From contig JANYDE010000012.1 of assembly GCA_025359915.1 (NCBI GenBank), forward strand, positions 1 through 32,181: 32,181 nt of DNA. Reading direction: 5' to 3'. The notes beneath the pieces are model-generated. The model made no database searches. It was not told the DNA's origin and saw only the letters and a list, made by a program, of their open reading frames with translations. Source of the DNA: Chamaesiphon sp. 336R_metabinner_41. Its GTDB lineage: Bacteria > Cyanobacteriota > Cyanobacteriia > Cyanobacteriales > Chamaesiphonaceae. Made by a program: the position numbers and the translations under genes. Below are positions 26,126 through 32,181 of the stretch, one piece after another; the stretch's first letter is position 1, and each line of letters opens with the position of its first letter.

Positions 26126-29100
26126 ATGAAATCCTTTTTATCATCTCTCCGCAAGATCGATCTCACTGACAACACCCTCAGCAGTCACCAAAATAGCAAA
26201 TCAATCGATCTACACTTAGGACGAATGAATGCTAGAGGTCTGCAATATGACAGTCCAGAATCTTCAGCAGTTGAGCAAACAAACTGGCACAAATTCTACC
26301 GCCAATTTGGTGTAGTGAGTTTACTCTCAACGGCAGCTTACTTGTGGCAATCGACAGCGGTGATGGCAGCACCGCTCTCCTGCTCGTCGATTTATGCGGA
26401 TGTCTATGGTGGTACGGCAATCTACTCGATCAACACCACGACCGCTGCAATCACGCAAGCAGCAACATTACCAGTCAACTCAGGCATCGGGATTGCCATT
26501 ACTCCAGGGGCAACACCCACTCTTTATTCTGACATTTATCGACTCACAACTAGCCCACCAGCCTATCTAAACTATACTAACGGAACTACTCCAGGCACGA
26601 GTACAACTGCCAAGTTTACCGCTCCCTATGGTGGTGGACTTGGTACAACTAACAATGGTCTTTTATTCTACATTGGTCGTAGCGGTTCAACACAGAGCCT
26701 CATGCAATTTCCTACCCCTACCTCGGCGGCAGTGAATCTCGGTACCATCACCGCAGCCATCCCAGGCGACCCCATCTGGCCGACGCTATCCCCCGGCGAC
26801 ATGATGAGTGATGCCAATGGTCGTCTCTATTATTTCGGAACTGACTACGTAAAAAATAACCTAGGACAATACACCAATTATTTATATTATATAGATAGTA
26901 GTAAATCTGCTCACCTATTAGGATCTTATCTATCCACACGGGCTGGAATTGGTGTAGCGTTTAATCCAGCGGGTGTGATGTATACACTCAACGCAAACCT
27001 TCTCTACAAAATTGACATGACGGCGGGCTTCTCATCCACACTGATTGGCGATACAGGTAACTCCAATCTCATTGACATGGCATCATGTGCCTTACCAACA
27101 ATGAACCCAAATGTCTCAGGCACAAAAACCGTGCGGGACGTAACAACGAGCCAGAATCCAGCAACGATCGTTAATACCAATGATATTCTTGAGTATAATG
27201 TAGTCGTAACCAACACTGGTAACTTGCCATCCGATGGTAGTAAGTTTATTGATGTTATCCCCCCAGGAAGTAGTTACGTCGGTAGTTCCACCAAGTTGTG
27301 TAACGCAACTGGCGTAACCTGTGCCACAGTTGCCGATGTTGCTGGAGTTGGGCCGTTTGTTGGGAGCGGGATGCTGGTCAATACTTCGGGTCAAAGTGCA
27401 GGCGTAATGTTGGCTGGATCAGCAAACAACGCCATCGTCAAATTTCAAGTCAAAGTTACCAGTACTGGGGCAGGTACTACTGGTAATCCCATCAGCATCG
27501 TCAACACTGGGCAAACATCCTACCCAACAGTTAGCGGAGGAACTGTCACAACTAGTACTCCAAACACCTCAAGCACCAGTGTTCCAATCGCTGTTCCTAC
27601 CGATTACAGCGATGCGCCTAGCAGCTATGGATCTGCCTCACATACGATCGTTAGTGGCATCCATTTAGGAACAACAATTACAGCAGAGAGTGCTGCCTAT
27701 AATAGCCCTCTGGCTGACGGCGATACTGACGACGGTATCAGCAGCTTTCCTACTTTGACTGCCGGAGCAACCACCTACAGCATTCCCGCTGCCAATATCG
27801 CCGCAACGGGCACTGGTACACTGCACGCCTGGATCGATTTCAATCAGAACGGTACGTTTGAGGCTGGGGAACATACCAGCGTTGCCGTTACTAGCAATAC
27901 ACTTGCAGGTGCTCTAAACTGGACAGGAATTACGGCTGGTGCTGCTGGGAATACCTTCGCCCGTTTTCGCTTTACCAGTGATAGCAACGTCACTGCCAAT
28001 ACCCCCAGTGGAATTGCCGCTAATGGGGAAGTTGAAGATTATCAGATTTCAATAGGGGCTGCTCCTTTGACCTGTGGAACAATCTACGGTTCTTATCTCA
28101 ATGGTGGAATTTACAACGGTCTCAGAGGCTATACTCCATCAACTGGGAGCCTTGCTACTCAGATCGCCACTCTAACAACCCCAGGAGGTACGACAACCGC
28201 AGTTGCAGCACTTGCAGTCGATCCATTACTAGATAGCAGTGGCAATCGTCGTGTTTATTACATGGAGAATACAGGTACTGGTGCAAAACTATATTACTAT
28301 AACGGCTCTAGCATTAGCGATACTGGCATAGCATTAACAGTTCCTTACTCTCCGATAAATATCGTACGCTCTGACGGTTCAACCGGATCTTTAAACAATA
28401 CATTTAACCGGATGGGTTTTGCACCAGATGGTACCTTATACATCGCCGATGGTCAAAAAACATTTTACCGTTTTAGCCCAAATCGTTCAGGTACAGGCGG
28501 CATTCTCTCATCAGCAAACACCATCACAGATAATACCAACAATGATAGTGGAAATTCCGGTCGTGCCAAAGTAGGTCAATCGGGTGGTGGAGATATTGCC
28601 TTTGACAATGCTGGTCGCATGTACATTGTGACTTATGACTCCAATAACTCTAATGTTCCAACCGAGTTCCGACTTTTCCAAATCTTTAATCCGAATAGTT
28701 CCACCCCGACGGCTGTTTTACTCGGTAAAGAACCATCCACAGACACTGTAGCGGGTTTAGCCTTCCAAGCAAGTGACAACACACTTTATATGCAAGGTAG
28801 TGGCGGAAAGTCTTTTGGTTGGAACTTAGCTACAAACACAGTTACACCTCTTACTCTTGCTGTCCCTGGTTCAGCAGATTTAGGTAGTTGTACTTATCCA
28901 GATTTAAACCCCACTGGTGCATTCACCAAAACAGTCGCCAATATTACCAACCCTGGAGCTACAAAACTTACTGCCAACGATGTTTTAGAATATACACTCA
29001 ATGTCACCAATAACGGTAACTTGGTTGCGGGAAACGTCACCCTCACAGACGCTATTCCAGCGGGCACAACCTATGTAGCAGGTTCCACCAAACTAAATGG

Positions 29101-29953
29101 TACTCTCAAAGCCGATAACTCTGGTGCCATGCCCTACGCCAATACAACTACTCCCCAGCAAATCAATAGCCCTGGTAAAGCGAGTGGAGTCTTAACTGCT
29201 GGTGCAAGCAATAAAGCAACCGTTGTTTTTCGGGTCAATGTGAATGCATCCAAGACACAGGTATGTAACCAGGGTAACGTCAAATATGACGGCGGTCTAT
29301 CGGTTGGAATCTTTTCAGACGATCCTACTACTACAGTTGCCGATGACCAGACTTGTACTGGGGTGAATCAAGCTAACATGCTAATAGTCAAAAGAATTAC
29401 GGCAATTAAAGCCGCTGGCGCGACTACGGCGACTAATTACAATACATTTGACACAACATCTCCAGCTTTGGGCAATGATCGCAACTGCAATTGGCCACTA
29501 ACAACTAATGTCGATGGAGCCTGTACTAATAATTATATCCTGGGGAAAATCGATGCTGGTTTGGTCAAGCCAGGTGATGAGATCGAGTATACAATTTATT
29601 ATCTCAATGCTGGGGCAAACAAAGCAAAACAAGCGCGAATTTGCGACAGATTAAATAACAATTTAACGTTTCAAACTCAATTCGATAGTACGATTCCTAC
29701 TACTATCGATAAAGGTATCGCTTTGGCTCAAAATAGTACATCGATCTCATCATATCTGACCAATACGGGAACCGATTCGGACAAAGGGGAATTGACTACT
29801 GAGAATTTAGTTGATACTAGTTGCAACCTCAGTGCCAACACTACGCCGAATCCGACATCTGTCTTGCCTGCGAATGTCGTCGTAGTTGATGTCACGACTC
29901 CTTTACTCAGTGGTGGCTATGGTTATATCCGCTTTAAGACAACAGTGAAATAG
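26126..29953 (+). CDS. Large secreted multidomain protein with DUF11, GEVED and propeller-like domains
   Basis: The 1275-residue protein has a late hydrophobic signal segment (about 60-80, FGVVSLLSTAAYLW...) ending AVMAAPLSC, so the first ~55 residues are an extended n-region or the true start is the ATG at 26225 (M34). Domains in order: propeller-like, DUF6923-type (about 82-325); DUF11 (about 326-490, TNDILEYNVVVTNTGNL); GEVED-type (about 491-645, with HAWIDFNQNGTFEAGE and the GEVEDY motif at 634-639); second propeller-like (about 645-927); second DUF11 (about 928-1085); a third DUF11-like C-terminal part ending GYGYIRFKTTVK. No sorting signal or C-terminal anchor is visible. It is likely exported and structural or adhesive. 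Base use differs from the neighbours: CGATCG is scarce. Confidence 0.85.
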   Translation: MKSFLSSLRKIDLTDNTLSSHQNSKSIDLHLGRMNARGLQYDSPESSAVEQTNWHKFYRQFGVVSLLSTAAYLWQSTAVMAAPLSCSSIYADVYGGTAIYSINTTTAAITQAATLPVNSGIGIAITPGATPTLYSDIYRLTTSPPAYLNYTNGTTPGTSTTAKFTAPYGGGLGTTNNGLLFYIGRSGSTQSLMQFPTPTSAAVNLGTITAAIPGDPIWPTLSPGDMMSDANGRLYYFGTDYVKNNLGQYTNYLYYIDSSKSAHLLGSYLSTRAGIGVAFNPAGVMYTLNANLLYKIDMTAGFSSTLIGDTGNSNLIDMASCALPTMNPNVSGTKTVRDVTTSQNPATIVNTNDILEYNVVVTNTGNLPSDGSKFIDVIPPGSSYVGSSTKLCNATGVTCATVADVAGVGPFVGSGMLVNTSGQSAGVMLAGSANNAIVKFQVKVTSTGAGTTGNPISIVNTGQTSYPTVSGGTVTTSTPNTSSTSVPIAVPTDYSDAPSSYGSASHTIVSGIHLGTTITAESAAYNSPLADGDTDDGISSFPTLTAGATTYSIPAANIAATGTGTLHAWIDFNQNGTFEAGEHTSVAVTSNTLAGALNWTGITAGAAGNTFARFRFTSDSNVTANTPSGIAANGEVEDYQISIGAAPLTCGTIYGSYLNGGIYNGLRGYTPSTGSLATQIATLTTPGGTTTAVAALAVDPLLDSSGNRRVYYMENTGTGAKLYYYNGSSISDTGIALTVPYSPINIVRSDGSTGSLNNTFNRMGFAPDGTLYIADGQKTFYRFSPNRSGTGGILSSANTITDNTNNDSGNSGRAKVGQSGGGDIAFDNAGRMYIVTYDSNNSNVPTEFRLFQIFNPNSSTPTAVLLGKEPSTDTVAGLAFQASDNTLYMQGSGGKSFGWNLATNTVTPLTLAVPGSADLGSCTYPDLNPTGAFTKTVANITNPGATKLTANDVLEYTLNVTNNGNLVAGNVTLTDAIPAGTTYVAGSTKLNGTLKADNSGAMPYANTTTPQQINSPGKASGVLTAGASNKATVVFRVNVNASKTQVCNQGNVKYDGGLSVGIFSDDPTTTVADDQTCTGVNQANMLIVKRITAIKAAGATTATNYNTFDTTSPALGNDRNCNWPLTTNVDGACTNNYILGKIDAGLVKPGDEIEYTIYYLNAGANKAKQARICDRLNNNLTFQTQFDSTIPTTIDKGIALAQNSTSISSYLTNTGTDSDKGELTTENLVDTSCNLSANTTPNPTSVLPANVVVVDVTTPLLSGGYGYIRFKTTVK

Positions 29954-30093
29954 GGAATAAAATTCACAGCCACGGTTGCTTTTCCCAGTAACGCCAATAC
30001 AACATCGATTTCCTTGCCAGTTGGGGTTCCACTGGTGCTGGTATTCCCACCACCTCCTACGGCTACATTCGGATCAAAGCAACTGTGAAATAG
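29954..30093 (+). pseudogene. Remnant of a paralogous C-terminal tail, frameshifted
   Basis: Right after the stop of the large gene, one frame reads KFTATVAFPSNANTTSISLP. The next frame continues with GAGIPTTSYGYIRIKATVK and a stop at 30091-30093. The last ten residues nearly repeat the end of the large protein (GYIRFKTTVK). This looks like the decayed 3' end of a second gene of the same family, with a frameshift near 30010-30035. Confidence 0.65.
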
Positions 30094-30111
30094 GAACTAG
30101 ATTTATGAGCC

Positions 30112-30146
30112 AAAAACCAGATTTCTCTAGAGAAATCTGGTTTTTT
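30112..30146 (+). terminator. Hairpin with T-run (rho-independent terminator-like)
   Basis: Arms AAAAACCAGATTTCT and AGAAATCTGGTTTTT surround CTAG and the right arm runs into six T. It is positioned to end transcription from the large secreted-protein gene. It is also palindromic enough to act on the other strand. Confidence 0.75.
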
Positions 30147-30195
30147 AGCGTGTCGGCTTTGTTTCTATATTTGTAAGTTTTGGATTAAAATATAG

Positions 30196-30226
30196 ATACG
30201 GCTTTAGATTGAAGCTAAAGCCGTAT
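30196..30226 (+). repeat. Hairpin element, copy 1
   Basis: ATACGGCTTTAG and CTAAAGCCGTAT form a 12-bp stem around a 7-nt loop ATTGAAG. It lies 37 nt before the first coiled-coil gene. The same stem and loop recur at 30708-30738 and, diverged, at 30629-30653. Confidence 0.9.
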
Positions 30227-30263
30227 TGCCAAAAAACATATTATTCATAACAACCATAACATT

Positions 30264-30569
30264 ATGTCAGAAGAACGGTTCGACAGGCTAGAAAATCAGC
30301 TCACACAGGTCATTCAAGCTATTGGTACGATGCAACAAAACATGGGTGCCATGAATCAAAACATCGATGCGCTGAGGGAAGATGTAATTGCCCTCCGGCA
30401 TCGGATTGACAGTGTTGAAGGTAGCCAGCAGATGATTATCCGAGAAGGCTTTCAATCATTGATGTCCTACAACGACGATCTCAACTATGAATTGTCTGAC
30501 GCTACACGGCAAAATCGGTTGTTGAAAAGACGAGTCATTCGCCTAGAACGAAAGGAAAAAGAAGATTAG
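30264..30569 (+). CDS. Small coiled-coil protein, copy 1
   Basis: A 101-residue protein with no signal peptide or membrane segment, of no family I recognise. It starts MSEERFDRLENQLTQVIQAI and has heptad spacing of hydrophobic residues over about residues 5-55 (IDALREDVIALRHRIDSVEG), then a charged basic tail RLLKRRVIRLERKEKED. It is a paralogue of the gene at 30774: the first 18 residues are identical and the RIDSVEG and RRV.RLER blocks are shared. A hairpin element precedes both genes. Oligomerisation or nucleic-acid contact through the basic tail is possible, but no role is assigned. Immediately after the stop codon, in frame, lies the tail GYIRFKATVK of the neighbouring secreted-protein family. 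Confidence 0.75.
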   Translation: MSEERFDRLENQLTQVIQAIGTMQQNMGAMNQNIDALREDVIALRHRIDSVEGSQQMIIREGFQSLMSYNDDLNYELSDATRQNRLLKRRVIRLERKEKED

Positions 30570-30602
30570 GGCTATATCCGCTTTAAGGCAACTGTGAAGT
30601 AA
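30570..30602 (+). pseudogene. Third copy of the GYIRFKATVK tail, in frame after a stop
   Basis: The 33 nt after the stop of the coiled-coil gene read GYIRFKATVK and TAA, nearly the same as the end of the large secreted protein. They are in the same frame as the coiled-coil gene, separated only by its TAG. No start or other part of the family is present, so it is a recombination remnant. Confidence 0.65.
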
Positions 30603-30628
30603 TTGGTTTTGGCTTAAAATTAGCAGTA

Positions 30629-30653
30629 CGGCTCTAGTTTCAAGCTAGAGCCG
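30629..30653 (+). repeat. Hairpin element, copy 2 (diverged, with compensatory change)
   Basis: CGGCTCTAG and CTAGAGCCG pair around TTTCAAG. Compared with copies 1 and 3 a T-A pair in the stem has become C-G on both arms, so pairing is kept. The preceding GTTTTGGCTTAAAAT also resembles the flanks of the other copies. Confidence 0.8.
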
Positions 30654-30707
30654 AATCTTGTAGAAACATCGGTGACATTGAGTTGTAAGTTTTAGATTAG
30701 AATATAA

Positions 30708-30738
30708 ATACGGCTTTAGATTGAAGCTAAAGCCGTAT
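30708..30738 (+). repeat. Hairpin element, copy 3
   Basis: Identical stem and loop to copy 1 (ATACGGCTTTAG, ATTGAAG, CTAAAGCCGTAT), 35 nt before the second coiled-coil gene. Copies 1 and 3 are 512 bp apart and part of one tandem duplication that starts near TTGTAAGTTTT at 30171 and 30683. Confidence 0.9.
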
Positions 30739-30773
30739 TTCCGAATTAACCTAATAATAACAAGCATATCATT

Positions 30774-31139
30774 ATGTCAGAAGAACGGTTCGACAGACTG
30801 GAGAATCAACTCACGCAAGTCATTCAGTCTATTGCTACTATGCAACAGCAGATGGCAACCAAGCAAGATTTAGCGGCTGTAGAGCAGAAAGTTGTTGGCA
30901 TCGAGCAAAAGATAATCAGCCTGGAGCAAAATGTTAATGCTGCTCGTGAAGATATCTTCTCCTTACGCAATCGAATTGATAGTGTTGAAGGTGCGGTAGC
31001 TGTTGTCATCCGTAGCACATTTGTAACGCACCAAAGTTTTGTAGACGATCTCAATTTCGATCTCCAAAATAACGAACGTAAAACCCGTCGATTGAGTCGT
31101 CGCGTTGCTCGATTGGAACGCCAAGATTTGGATGACTAA
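30774..31139 (+). CDS. Small coiled-coil protein, copy 2
   Basis: A 121-residue paralogue of the protein at 30264. The N-terminal MSEERFDRLENQLTQVIQ is identical, then this copy carries about 20 extra residues with clear heptads (VEQKVVG, IEQKIIS, LEQNVNA) before rejoining at REDI.SLR.RIDSVEG. The C terminus is again basic (TRRLSRRVARLERQD). The different coiled-coil lengths suggest the two could form homo- or hetero-oligomers, which is inference. No signal peptide or membrane helix. An antisense frame over it is a shadow. Function unknown. Confidence 0.75.
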   Translation: MSEERFDRLENQLTQVIQSIATMQQQMATKQDLAAVEQKVVGIEQKIISLEQNVNAAREDIFSLRNRIDSVEGAVAVVIRSTFVTHQSFVDDLNFDLQNNERKTRRLSRRVARLERQDLDD

Positions 31140-31192
31140 ATATACTCACAGCTTGCATCAATACATATAGACTATTACTAAGCATAGCTCTA

Positions 31193-31222
31193 GGGTACCC
31201 ATAAAGGGCACCCCTACGGGTA
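31193..31222. repeat. Imperfect palindromic intergenic repeat
   Basis: The sequence starts GGGTACCC and ends TACGGGTA, with AAAGGGCACCCC between. TACCC and GGGTA arms can pair. It has the look of a dispersed cyanobacterial intergenic repeat; function unknown. Confidence 0.4.
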
Positions 31223-31277
31223 TAATGCAAACGGCTAAATCCTGGACTTTGCGAATCTTTTAAGCCTGGAAGACATA

Positions 31278-31304
31278 TCCCCGACTTCTTGGAGAAGTCG
31301 GGGA
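31278..31304. repeat. Palindromic repeat related to the one after thrS
   Basis: Arms TCCCCGACTTCT and AGAAGTCGGGGA form a 12-bp stem around TGG. The core is the same as the palindrome at 24674-24706, and both are followed by the short sequence TAGCG. Confidence 0.75.
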
Positions 31305-31349
31305 CATAGCGTAATTCTAAAATGATGGTTAATTATCGCTGAAATGTCA

Positions 31350-31373
31350 AATATCCGCGTTTATACGGTACTC
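31350..31373 (+). promoter_or_regulatory. Shared upstream motif, copy 2
   Basis: Block beginning AATATCCG and ending ACGGTACTC, matching the copy at 25880-25903 at 22 of 24 positions. It lies about 390 bp before the truncated surface-protein gene. Confidence 0.5.
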
Positions 31374-31565
31374 GATCGCTGACACCTTAGCTTAATATGT
31401 AAATAGATAGAAGTCCGTCTGTGCCGGAAAAATTTATTACTCATTAAATTGCAATATGGCATTGATTGCTTATTCTCAATAGTATTCTCCAGGCTTAAAA
31501 TCCAAAAGAGATCTGTTTTGCCACGGGTTAATTCATAAGTTATAAATCGGGATGTTTATTTCCAA

Positions 31566-31596
31566 AGCCAAGAGCCATAAGTGCTCTGGCTTTTTT
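31566..31596 (+). terminator. Terminator-like hairpin with six T
   Basis: AGCC-A-AGAGC pairs with GCTCTGGCT around a 7-nt loop, with one bulged A, and is followed by a T-run. The nearest upstream plus-strand gene ends 427 bp earlier, so it may end a long untranslated tail or a lost gene. Confidence 0.5.
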
Positions 31597-31766
31597 GTGC
31601 TATTAGATTTTAGACGTTTAAAAAAATATTTTTCTTTAGCAGATAAATTTGATTTTGCCTGTAACTTTACGACGAATTCTTGGGATTAATAAGAAAGAAC
31701 TAGATGAGAAGCTCGATAGATCTTGCATGATTCGATCGCTATCAATTATCTGTGAAATTCTTTGTT

Positions 31767-32045
31767 ATGTCAGACTTCCATCCGAAATATACCCGCAAGC
31801 ATAGCAATCGTCAATCGATCGATCAGTACTATCTGAACTTTCTAGCTCGATCTATTGTGATCTTAAGTTTAAATTTGATCGGTTTAGCACCTCTGCTCGC
31901 CTTACCAACCGCGCCCAATACCAATGGGACTCCAGGCGATAATGATGCTAGCAAGCACCGTCAGGAAGCGAGTGCGATTCAGACTGTCAATGCTATTGCG
32001 CCGCCATTGACAATTTCCGGTCGAGTATTTGAAGATCCCAATTAG
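31767..32045 (+). pseudogene. Truncated 5' end of a secreted surface-protein gene
   Basis: The 92 codons from ATG 31767 encode a basic n-region (MSDFHPKYTRKHSNRQ...), a hydrophobic signal segment (about 29-45, ARSIVILSLNLIGLAPLLAL) and then a Pro/Thr/Asn-rich stretch ending LTISGRVFEDPN and a stop. In secreted cyanobacterial proteins the SG.VFED.N motif normally opens a long SdrD_B/Cna-B-like or DUF11 region, so the gene stops just where the main body should begin. The longer frame from GTG at 31752 adds five residues. The sequence after the stop looks like an insertion-sequence end. An intact short secreted protein is a less likely reading. Confidence 0.6.
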
Positions 32046-32181
32046 GGCTTGCTGACAAAAGCCAAAACCCAGACACAGAGAGAGATATAAACAATAAAAA
32101 GTTAGTCAAGTTCAATGAAATCGGCTAAAATCAACTAAAATTAGTGAAGAAATCGATATATCCGTACAAGTAATGTATAAA
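32045..32181. mobile_element. Possible left end of an insertion sequence (partial)
   Basis: From 32045 the sequence reads GGGCTTGCTGACAAAAGCC, similar in style to terminal inverted repeats of insertion sequences, and it follows a TA dinucleotide exactly where a surface-protein gene is interrupted. Only 137 bp are in the window and no transposase frame or right end is visible, so this is a suggestion only. Confidence 0.3.

Follow-up and report, generated by a model that had tools for sequence, protein, structure and literature searches.

Why should the last ten codons of a surface-protein gene stand three times within 700 bp, once at the end of an intact gene and twice without a gene body? The question is raised by one end of a 32,181-nt stretch of DNA from Chamaesiphon sp. 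336R_metabinner_41, hereafter the window, which is one contig (C26) of a draft genome of 4.23 Mb in 169 contigs. Gene 1 (26126-29953, plus strand, like the tails, hairpins and genes placed below) encodes a protein of 1275 aa, of surface type, in which GEVED and DUF11-type repeats occur, and is terminated by T1, YGYIRFKTTVK plus stop (29918-29953), within which GYIRFKTTVK plus stop occupies 29921-29953. A spacer of 71 nt (29954-30024) lies between the gene 1 stop and the T2 stub (30025-30093), GSTGAGIPTTSYGYIRIKATVK followed by a stop codon, which corresponds to the last 22 codons of a family member; the tail proper, GYIRIKATVK plus stop, occupies 30061-30093, which puts its start 140 nt past T1 in a frame other than that of gene 1. 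The third copy, T3, is GYIRFKATVK plus stop (30570-30602), and its first base is the one right after the stop codon TAG of a small coiled-coil gene, CC1, with which it is in frame. The first-pass annotation had placed the three tails in this way, as we confirm, and had read them as traces of repeated recombination between the 3' ends of paralogous surface genes, perhaps at a cassette-exchange site, with readthrough of the CC1 stop as a further suggestion.

The tail as the end of a surface-protein family

The three tails are far better matches to the ends of one protein family than chance would give. A weight matrix was built from 113 other family C-termini, with the gene of the window excluded, and 20 copies of the window generated by a second-order Markov model served as its null. 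For the last ten residues the scores were 28.1 for T1, 19.2 for T2 and 28.5 for T3, compared with a null maximum of 14.0; elsewhere in the real window no place exceeded 10.3. When the last 20 residues were taken, T2 (39.9) scored higher than T1 (27.3), with a null maximum of 7.9, while T3 (-6.3) cannot be scored at this length because CC1 abuts it and the residues upstream of the tail are those of CC1. With these scores above the null, T1, T2 and T3 all qualify as copies of the family's C-terminal motif, YG[FY][IV]RF[RK]..VK at the protein end.

In cyanobacterial surface proteins of one DUF11/GEVED-type family, this tail is the conserved final strand. The family was matched by 115 of the 573 ORF ends of the collected loci in a first pass and by 116 in a second; among the matches listed, nearly all C-termini end in a YG[FY][IV]RF[RK]-like tail, with GTP.NSYGF.RFR..V as the C-terminal consensus, and one pattern-based scan of contigs found relatives of the C-terminal 195 aa of gene 1 encoded at 67 distinct GTDB loci. 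The genome-wide search that the first-pass annotation had proposed located a degenerate DNA pattern of the tail (at most three mismatches) in five places of the genome, all on the plus strand as given, namely T1, T2, T3 and the 3' termini of two paralogs, which lie on contigs C138 and C45. Of the family as a whole, four members were matched in the genome, gene 1 itself along with one on C45 and a pair on C138.

Gene 1 resembles known cyanobacterial DUF11-type repeat surface proteins in that it scores above the curated cut-offs of PF01345 and TIGR01451 (DUF11-type repeats) and of PF20009 (GEVED), but it differs from these models in its conserved C-terminal domain of about 195 aa, for which there is no full Pfam model; a match to DUF7619 covers 35 residues and lies below the cut-off. 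An AlphaFold2 model of this domain, based on 37 aligned domains, has a mean pLDDT of 85.8 and places a strand at residues 185-194 of 195 (with pLDDT values of 94 and 97 for the final two blocks), so that the tail is predicted to be the final beta strand of the domain. A sequence search of the PDB with the domain gave no match at E up to 1, and a fold search gave weak matches, none at E 0.001 or below, with pilus backbone proteins at the top.

The C-terminal domain and CC2, a paralog of CC1, served as queries against ten other genomes of the same genus or family. In a comparison that covers fetched stretches rather than whole genomes, the only genome to show an ortholog of gene 1 was G009, of the same family and of another genus (locus L018, GL140_1; 72% over 818 aligned positions). 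This ortholog terminates in the same kind of linker as that found in T2, and two further surface genes come after it, the first of them close behind; in the 20-kb stretch of G009 there was no match to the coiled-coil proteins and no stub was seen. The intact ancestral arrangement of our locus was not found in the ten genomes.

Extent and divergence of the stubs

The homology of T2 to the family is ungapped over 20-22 codons (30025-30093). Among the members tried, its best match was the C-terminus of the gene 1 ortholog at L018 (score 80, next 72), a preference that is modest, given how little the linker departs from the family consensus; its own neighbour, gene 1, scored 54, and then with gaps and frameshifts. 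The spacer upstream (29954-30024) might have been taken for a continuation of the T2 pseudogene, a possibility that we reject: a frameshift-aware alignment of 29954-30045 alone reached 31 (best of 40 members) compared with up to 39 in 40 shuffles, and 35 as the best over all members, which is the level of shuffled DNA. For T3, the homology comprises ten codons and a stop, and no family homology was found upstream, since CC1 abuts the tail. The first-pass annotation had itself named fragments that align with no family member outside the last ten codons as the case that would speak against it; T2, with 22 codons, escapes that description, while T3 half answers to it.

Most differences among the tails are synonymous. 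Counting the stop, synonymous changes make up 6 of the 8 differing codons between T1 and T2, 4 of 5 between T1 and T3 and 6 of 7 between T2 and T3, where 23% would be expected for random changes (P = 0.003, 0.012 and 0.0009, respectively, from small numbers and from three comparisons that are not mutually independent). Hence the tails probably diverged while they were still the coding ends of genes and were stranded later. At the DNA level T1 and T3 are the closest pair, with 26 of 30 nt identical, followed by T2 and T3 (23) and by T1 and T2 (21); at least 26 of 30 nt is reached by 43 of the 6441 pairs among 114 other gene-terminal tails.

The coiled-coil genes and their leader hairpins

Between and behind the stubs lie two small coiled-coil genes. 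T2 is followed by a perfect 17-bp palindrome (I7, 30112-30145; -19.5 kcal/mol, z -5.55), terminator-like in that its 3' arm ends in a T run, which a simple scan did not flag. Next come a 12-bp hairpin, H1 (30196-30226), with a -10-like TAAAAT just before it, in the leader of CC1 (30264-30569; 101 aa), and, past T3, an orphan leader hairpin of the coiled-coil type with its own -10-like box, Ha (30627-30653), ahead of the leader hairpin H2 (30709-30737) of the paralogous gene CC2 (30774-31139; 121 aa). CC1 and CC2 match each other best in their leaders and also in the first 84 nt of the genes (for CC1 in a tie with L149), while their C-terminal parts rank with different homologs in other genomes. 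In ranked pairwise scores, the leader and first 28 codons of CC1 resemble the CC2 type and its C-terminal 73 aa are nearest to another subgroup (L155, L101, L153 and L150), and CC1 thus looks, on these rankings, like a natural chimera of two coiled-coil subgroups.

The coiled-coil family (MSEERxxRxExQ...; loci L085-L114 and L147-L160) had matches in all 11 genomes of the same genus or family that were searched, ours among them, and 49 more distant genomes gave none at E up to 0.001; several copies carry short repeat units in variable number, of GIEQKV-, GIKQDV- or LTQNVDG-like sequence. The leader hairpin, with arms ACGGCTTTAG and CTAAAGCCGT around a short loop and a -10-like box immediately upstream, stands ahead of 10 of the 22 coiled-coil genes collected from these genomes (own two counted; read by eye), namely at our locus and at L101, L153, L150, L149, L148, L152, L151 and L098, in degenerate form at L148 and L098. 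Across 11 leaders, 96.2% of the cells pair, a value that 2 of 500 shuffles reached, and 2 of 12 pairs have changes on both sides (32 of 500 shuffles). At gathering scores, no Rfam family matched within 29800-32181. A genome-wide repeat is rejected as an explanation, given that the hairpin occurs at three places in the genome, all within this locus; it is possibly a cis-acting RNA element. For RNA biologists, this conserved hairpin in front of coiled-coil genes at the genus level may prove the more useful finding.

The downstream end of the locus

Next in the array comes another surface gene of the family, gene 2, of which the 5' part (31752-32045) is in the window; an insertion sequence cuts it near the end of this part, and the remainder lies on contig C138. 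The end of the window contig and the start of C138 share an exact overlap of 139 nt, by which the array would continue, probably in the order gene 1, T2, CC1, T3, CC2, gene 2 (split) and gene 3. The insertion sequence spans the end of the window from about 32043 and positions 1 to about 1660 of C138, with the rest of gene 2 beyond; it encodes the transposase domains DUF772 and DDE_Tnp_1_2 (Pfam) and is flanked by CAATTA on both sides. The window also carries a gene for DprA, a general recombination mediator.

Discussion

We propose, with a probability of roughly two in three, that T2 and T3 are the debris of local rearrangement between repeats in a tandem array of surface genes. The tails are homologous 3' ends of one paralogous family, with T1 as the live end of gene 1, and the array, now mixed with coiled-coil genes, would have been rearranged through deletions and partial duplications between repeats. 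T2 might be either the old end of gene 1, displaced by 140 bp once T1 had been acquired, or what remains of a neighbour that was lost. T3, a sister copy of T1, would have been left either by the loss of all DNA from the CC1 stop up to a family member's last ten codons or by the duplication of a short 3' segment into that place. Our data show the homology of the tails, their positions, the surplus of synonymous differences and the lack of stubs at the other family gene ends examined; the order and the mechanism of these events are what we infer. Against this reading stand the failure to find an intact ancestral arrangement in another genome, the modest preference of T2 for the ortholog, the even spacing of the repeats, the homology of T3 that stops at the tail and the draft state of the assembly. 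The stubs lack a gene body and are probably untranslated debris, and the surroundings look rearranged as well, with an apparently chimeric CC1, an orphan hairpin Ha past T3 and a gene 2 split by an insertion sequence. In this sense the recombination among 3' ends that the first-pass annotation had suggested is partly supported, by the paralogous tails here and elsewhere in the genome, the 22 codons of T2 and the rearranged surroundings, and it is the exchange site built upon it that is not supported.

The regular spacing of the locus could suggest another history, in which a unit of about 510 bp, made up of tail, intergenic DNA and coiled-coil gene, was duplicated once in tandem to give T2-CC1 and T3-CC2, with T3 as a passenger copy of T2. 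Such an event would account for the nearly equal offsets of 509 bp between the tails, 512 bp between the leaders and 510 bp between the coiled-coil starts, and for the mutual best matches of the leaders and gene starts of CC1 and CC2 (the tie with L149 aside). However, the homology fails at the spacers: in a global alignment the DNA between T2 and H1 and that between T3 and H2 scored -3.0, where the shuffled mean was 8.6 and 371 of 500 shuffles scored as high, so the sequences downstream of T2 and T3 share no conserved flank there and a duplication of the whole unit is rejected despite its fit to the offsets. In addition, T3 is nearer to T1 than to T2, the C-terminal parts of CC1 and CC2 rank apart, and T2 and T3 differ mainly by synonymous changes, all of which makes this history unlikely. 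A little less unlikely, but still doubtful in our view, is that a short 3' segment, the tail with 70-80 nt of following DNA, is itself a moving or converting unit that was the source of T1 and appears again as T3 past CC1. The sister relationship of T1 and T3 speaks for such a unit, as does the alignment of gene 1 with its ortholog, which is without the linker that the T2 stub bears. The DNA past T1 and past T3 also aligns weakly, at a level that 1 and 2 of 1000 dinucleotide shuffles reached under one scoring scheme and that was equalled by 13 or 25 of 5577 real 80-nt places (two schemes, overlaps with the T3 region counted). However, the similarity depends on the scheme, with 328, 63, 39 and 6 of 1000 shuffles as high under others, which give weak or no support, and this pair was chosen from 13 targets. 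Moreover, when a 136-nt segment around T3 was searched for in 30 genomes, it returned itself and the T1 tail alone in its own genome, and short weak matches, with E of 0.0045 or higher, in 5 of the 29 others. A specific form of this idea, which we regard as unlikely too, is that a segment of about 110 nt, consisting of a last strand (T1) and the 71 nt that follow it, was inserted into the linker of the C-terminal domain of gene 1, where it supplied a new in-frame strand and stop and stranded T2, with T3 as its sister copy. This form agrees with the ortholog alignment and with the kinship of T1 and T3, and draws weak support from the similar DNA behind those two tails.

The exchange of cassettes, with the stubs as silent donors for the 3' ends of surface genes and with T3 appended to CC1 by readthrough, is the least probable of the histories and one to which we give very little credence. 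The tails are indeed related, in direct order and beside a complete gene, and T3 is in frame with CC1; but a stranded tail within the next 700 nt was found at 1 of 105 distinct family gene ends, gene 1 alone (all ends with at least 700 nt downstream, four of them from our own genome), and a recurrent exchange site is therefore rejected. The stubs are only 10-22 codons long, the sequences behind T2 and T3 cannot be aligned, and there is no site-specific recombinase in the 25 proteins scanned against Pfam, a subset of the ORFs that comprises the three focal proteins, 20 further proteins of the window and two transposase pieces. Inversion of the shufflon type finds no footing here either, given the lack of a recombinase in the scanned set and three tail copies that are all direct, with the tail pattern on one strand of the genome; a full inverted copy of the tail was not found, and the inverted matches to the T2 stub are short and partial (I16, 16 nt, 81%; I3, 27 nt, 74%). 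As for readthrough, no tail was seen behind the stop of any of the 20 coiled-coil homologs taken from other genomes (107 nt inspected by eye, and a weight-matrix scan). Three of them (L098, L151 and L152) appear interrupted or altered near the end, which leaves 17 to inform on the normal stop, and the extension of CC1 is rejected. According to the model, moreover, the tail is a single strand of a beta domain and would presumably be unable to fold as that domain on its own. The gene ends, the scanned proteins and the homologs taken together thus lend no support to an exchange site or to readthrough.

Silent-cassette systems, such as Neisseria pilS and the Anaplasma msp2 pseudogenes, and shufflons as a related kind, share with this locus the presence of partial paralogous copies next to a surface gene. 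In contrast to them, the stubs described here are far too short, no variable region between conserved flanks was seen, and both the full inverted copy and, among the 25 scanned proteins, the site-specific recombinase are missing. The locus is closer to the pseudogene stubs that are known in general from tandem gene arrays, in that its stubs are truncated and have lost their frame, intact paralogs are adjacent and the locus is otherwise rearranged, but it is unlike the usual case in that the stubs are unusually short, are all 3' terminal and include one that is fused to the stop codon of a neighbour. Among the titles and abstract openings listed in our literature search, we found no publication on this locus or on stranded tails of this surface family.

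If the insertion into the gene 1 linker were true, short insertions at the 3' end would let surface proteins here replace their final beta strand and would give them new C-termini in a simple way. Under the reading that we prefer, local rearrangement between the repeats of a tandem array, the locus illustrates that, where a bacterial array of surface genes has been rearranged, the scars can be marked by a short, conserved protein end, and that such stubs should not be taken for exchange cassettes before the relatives have been checked.
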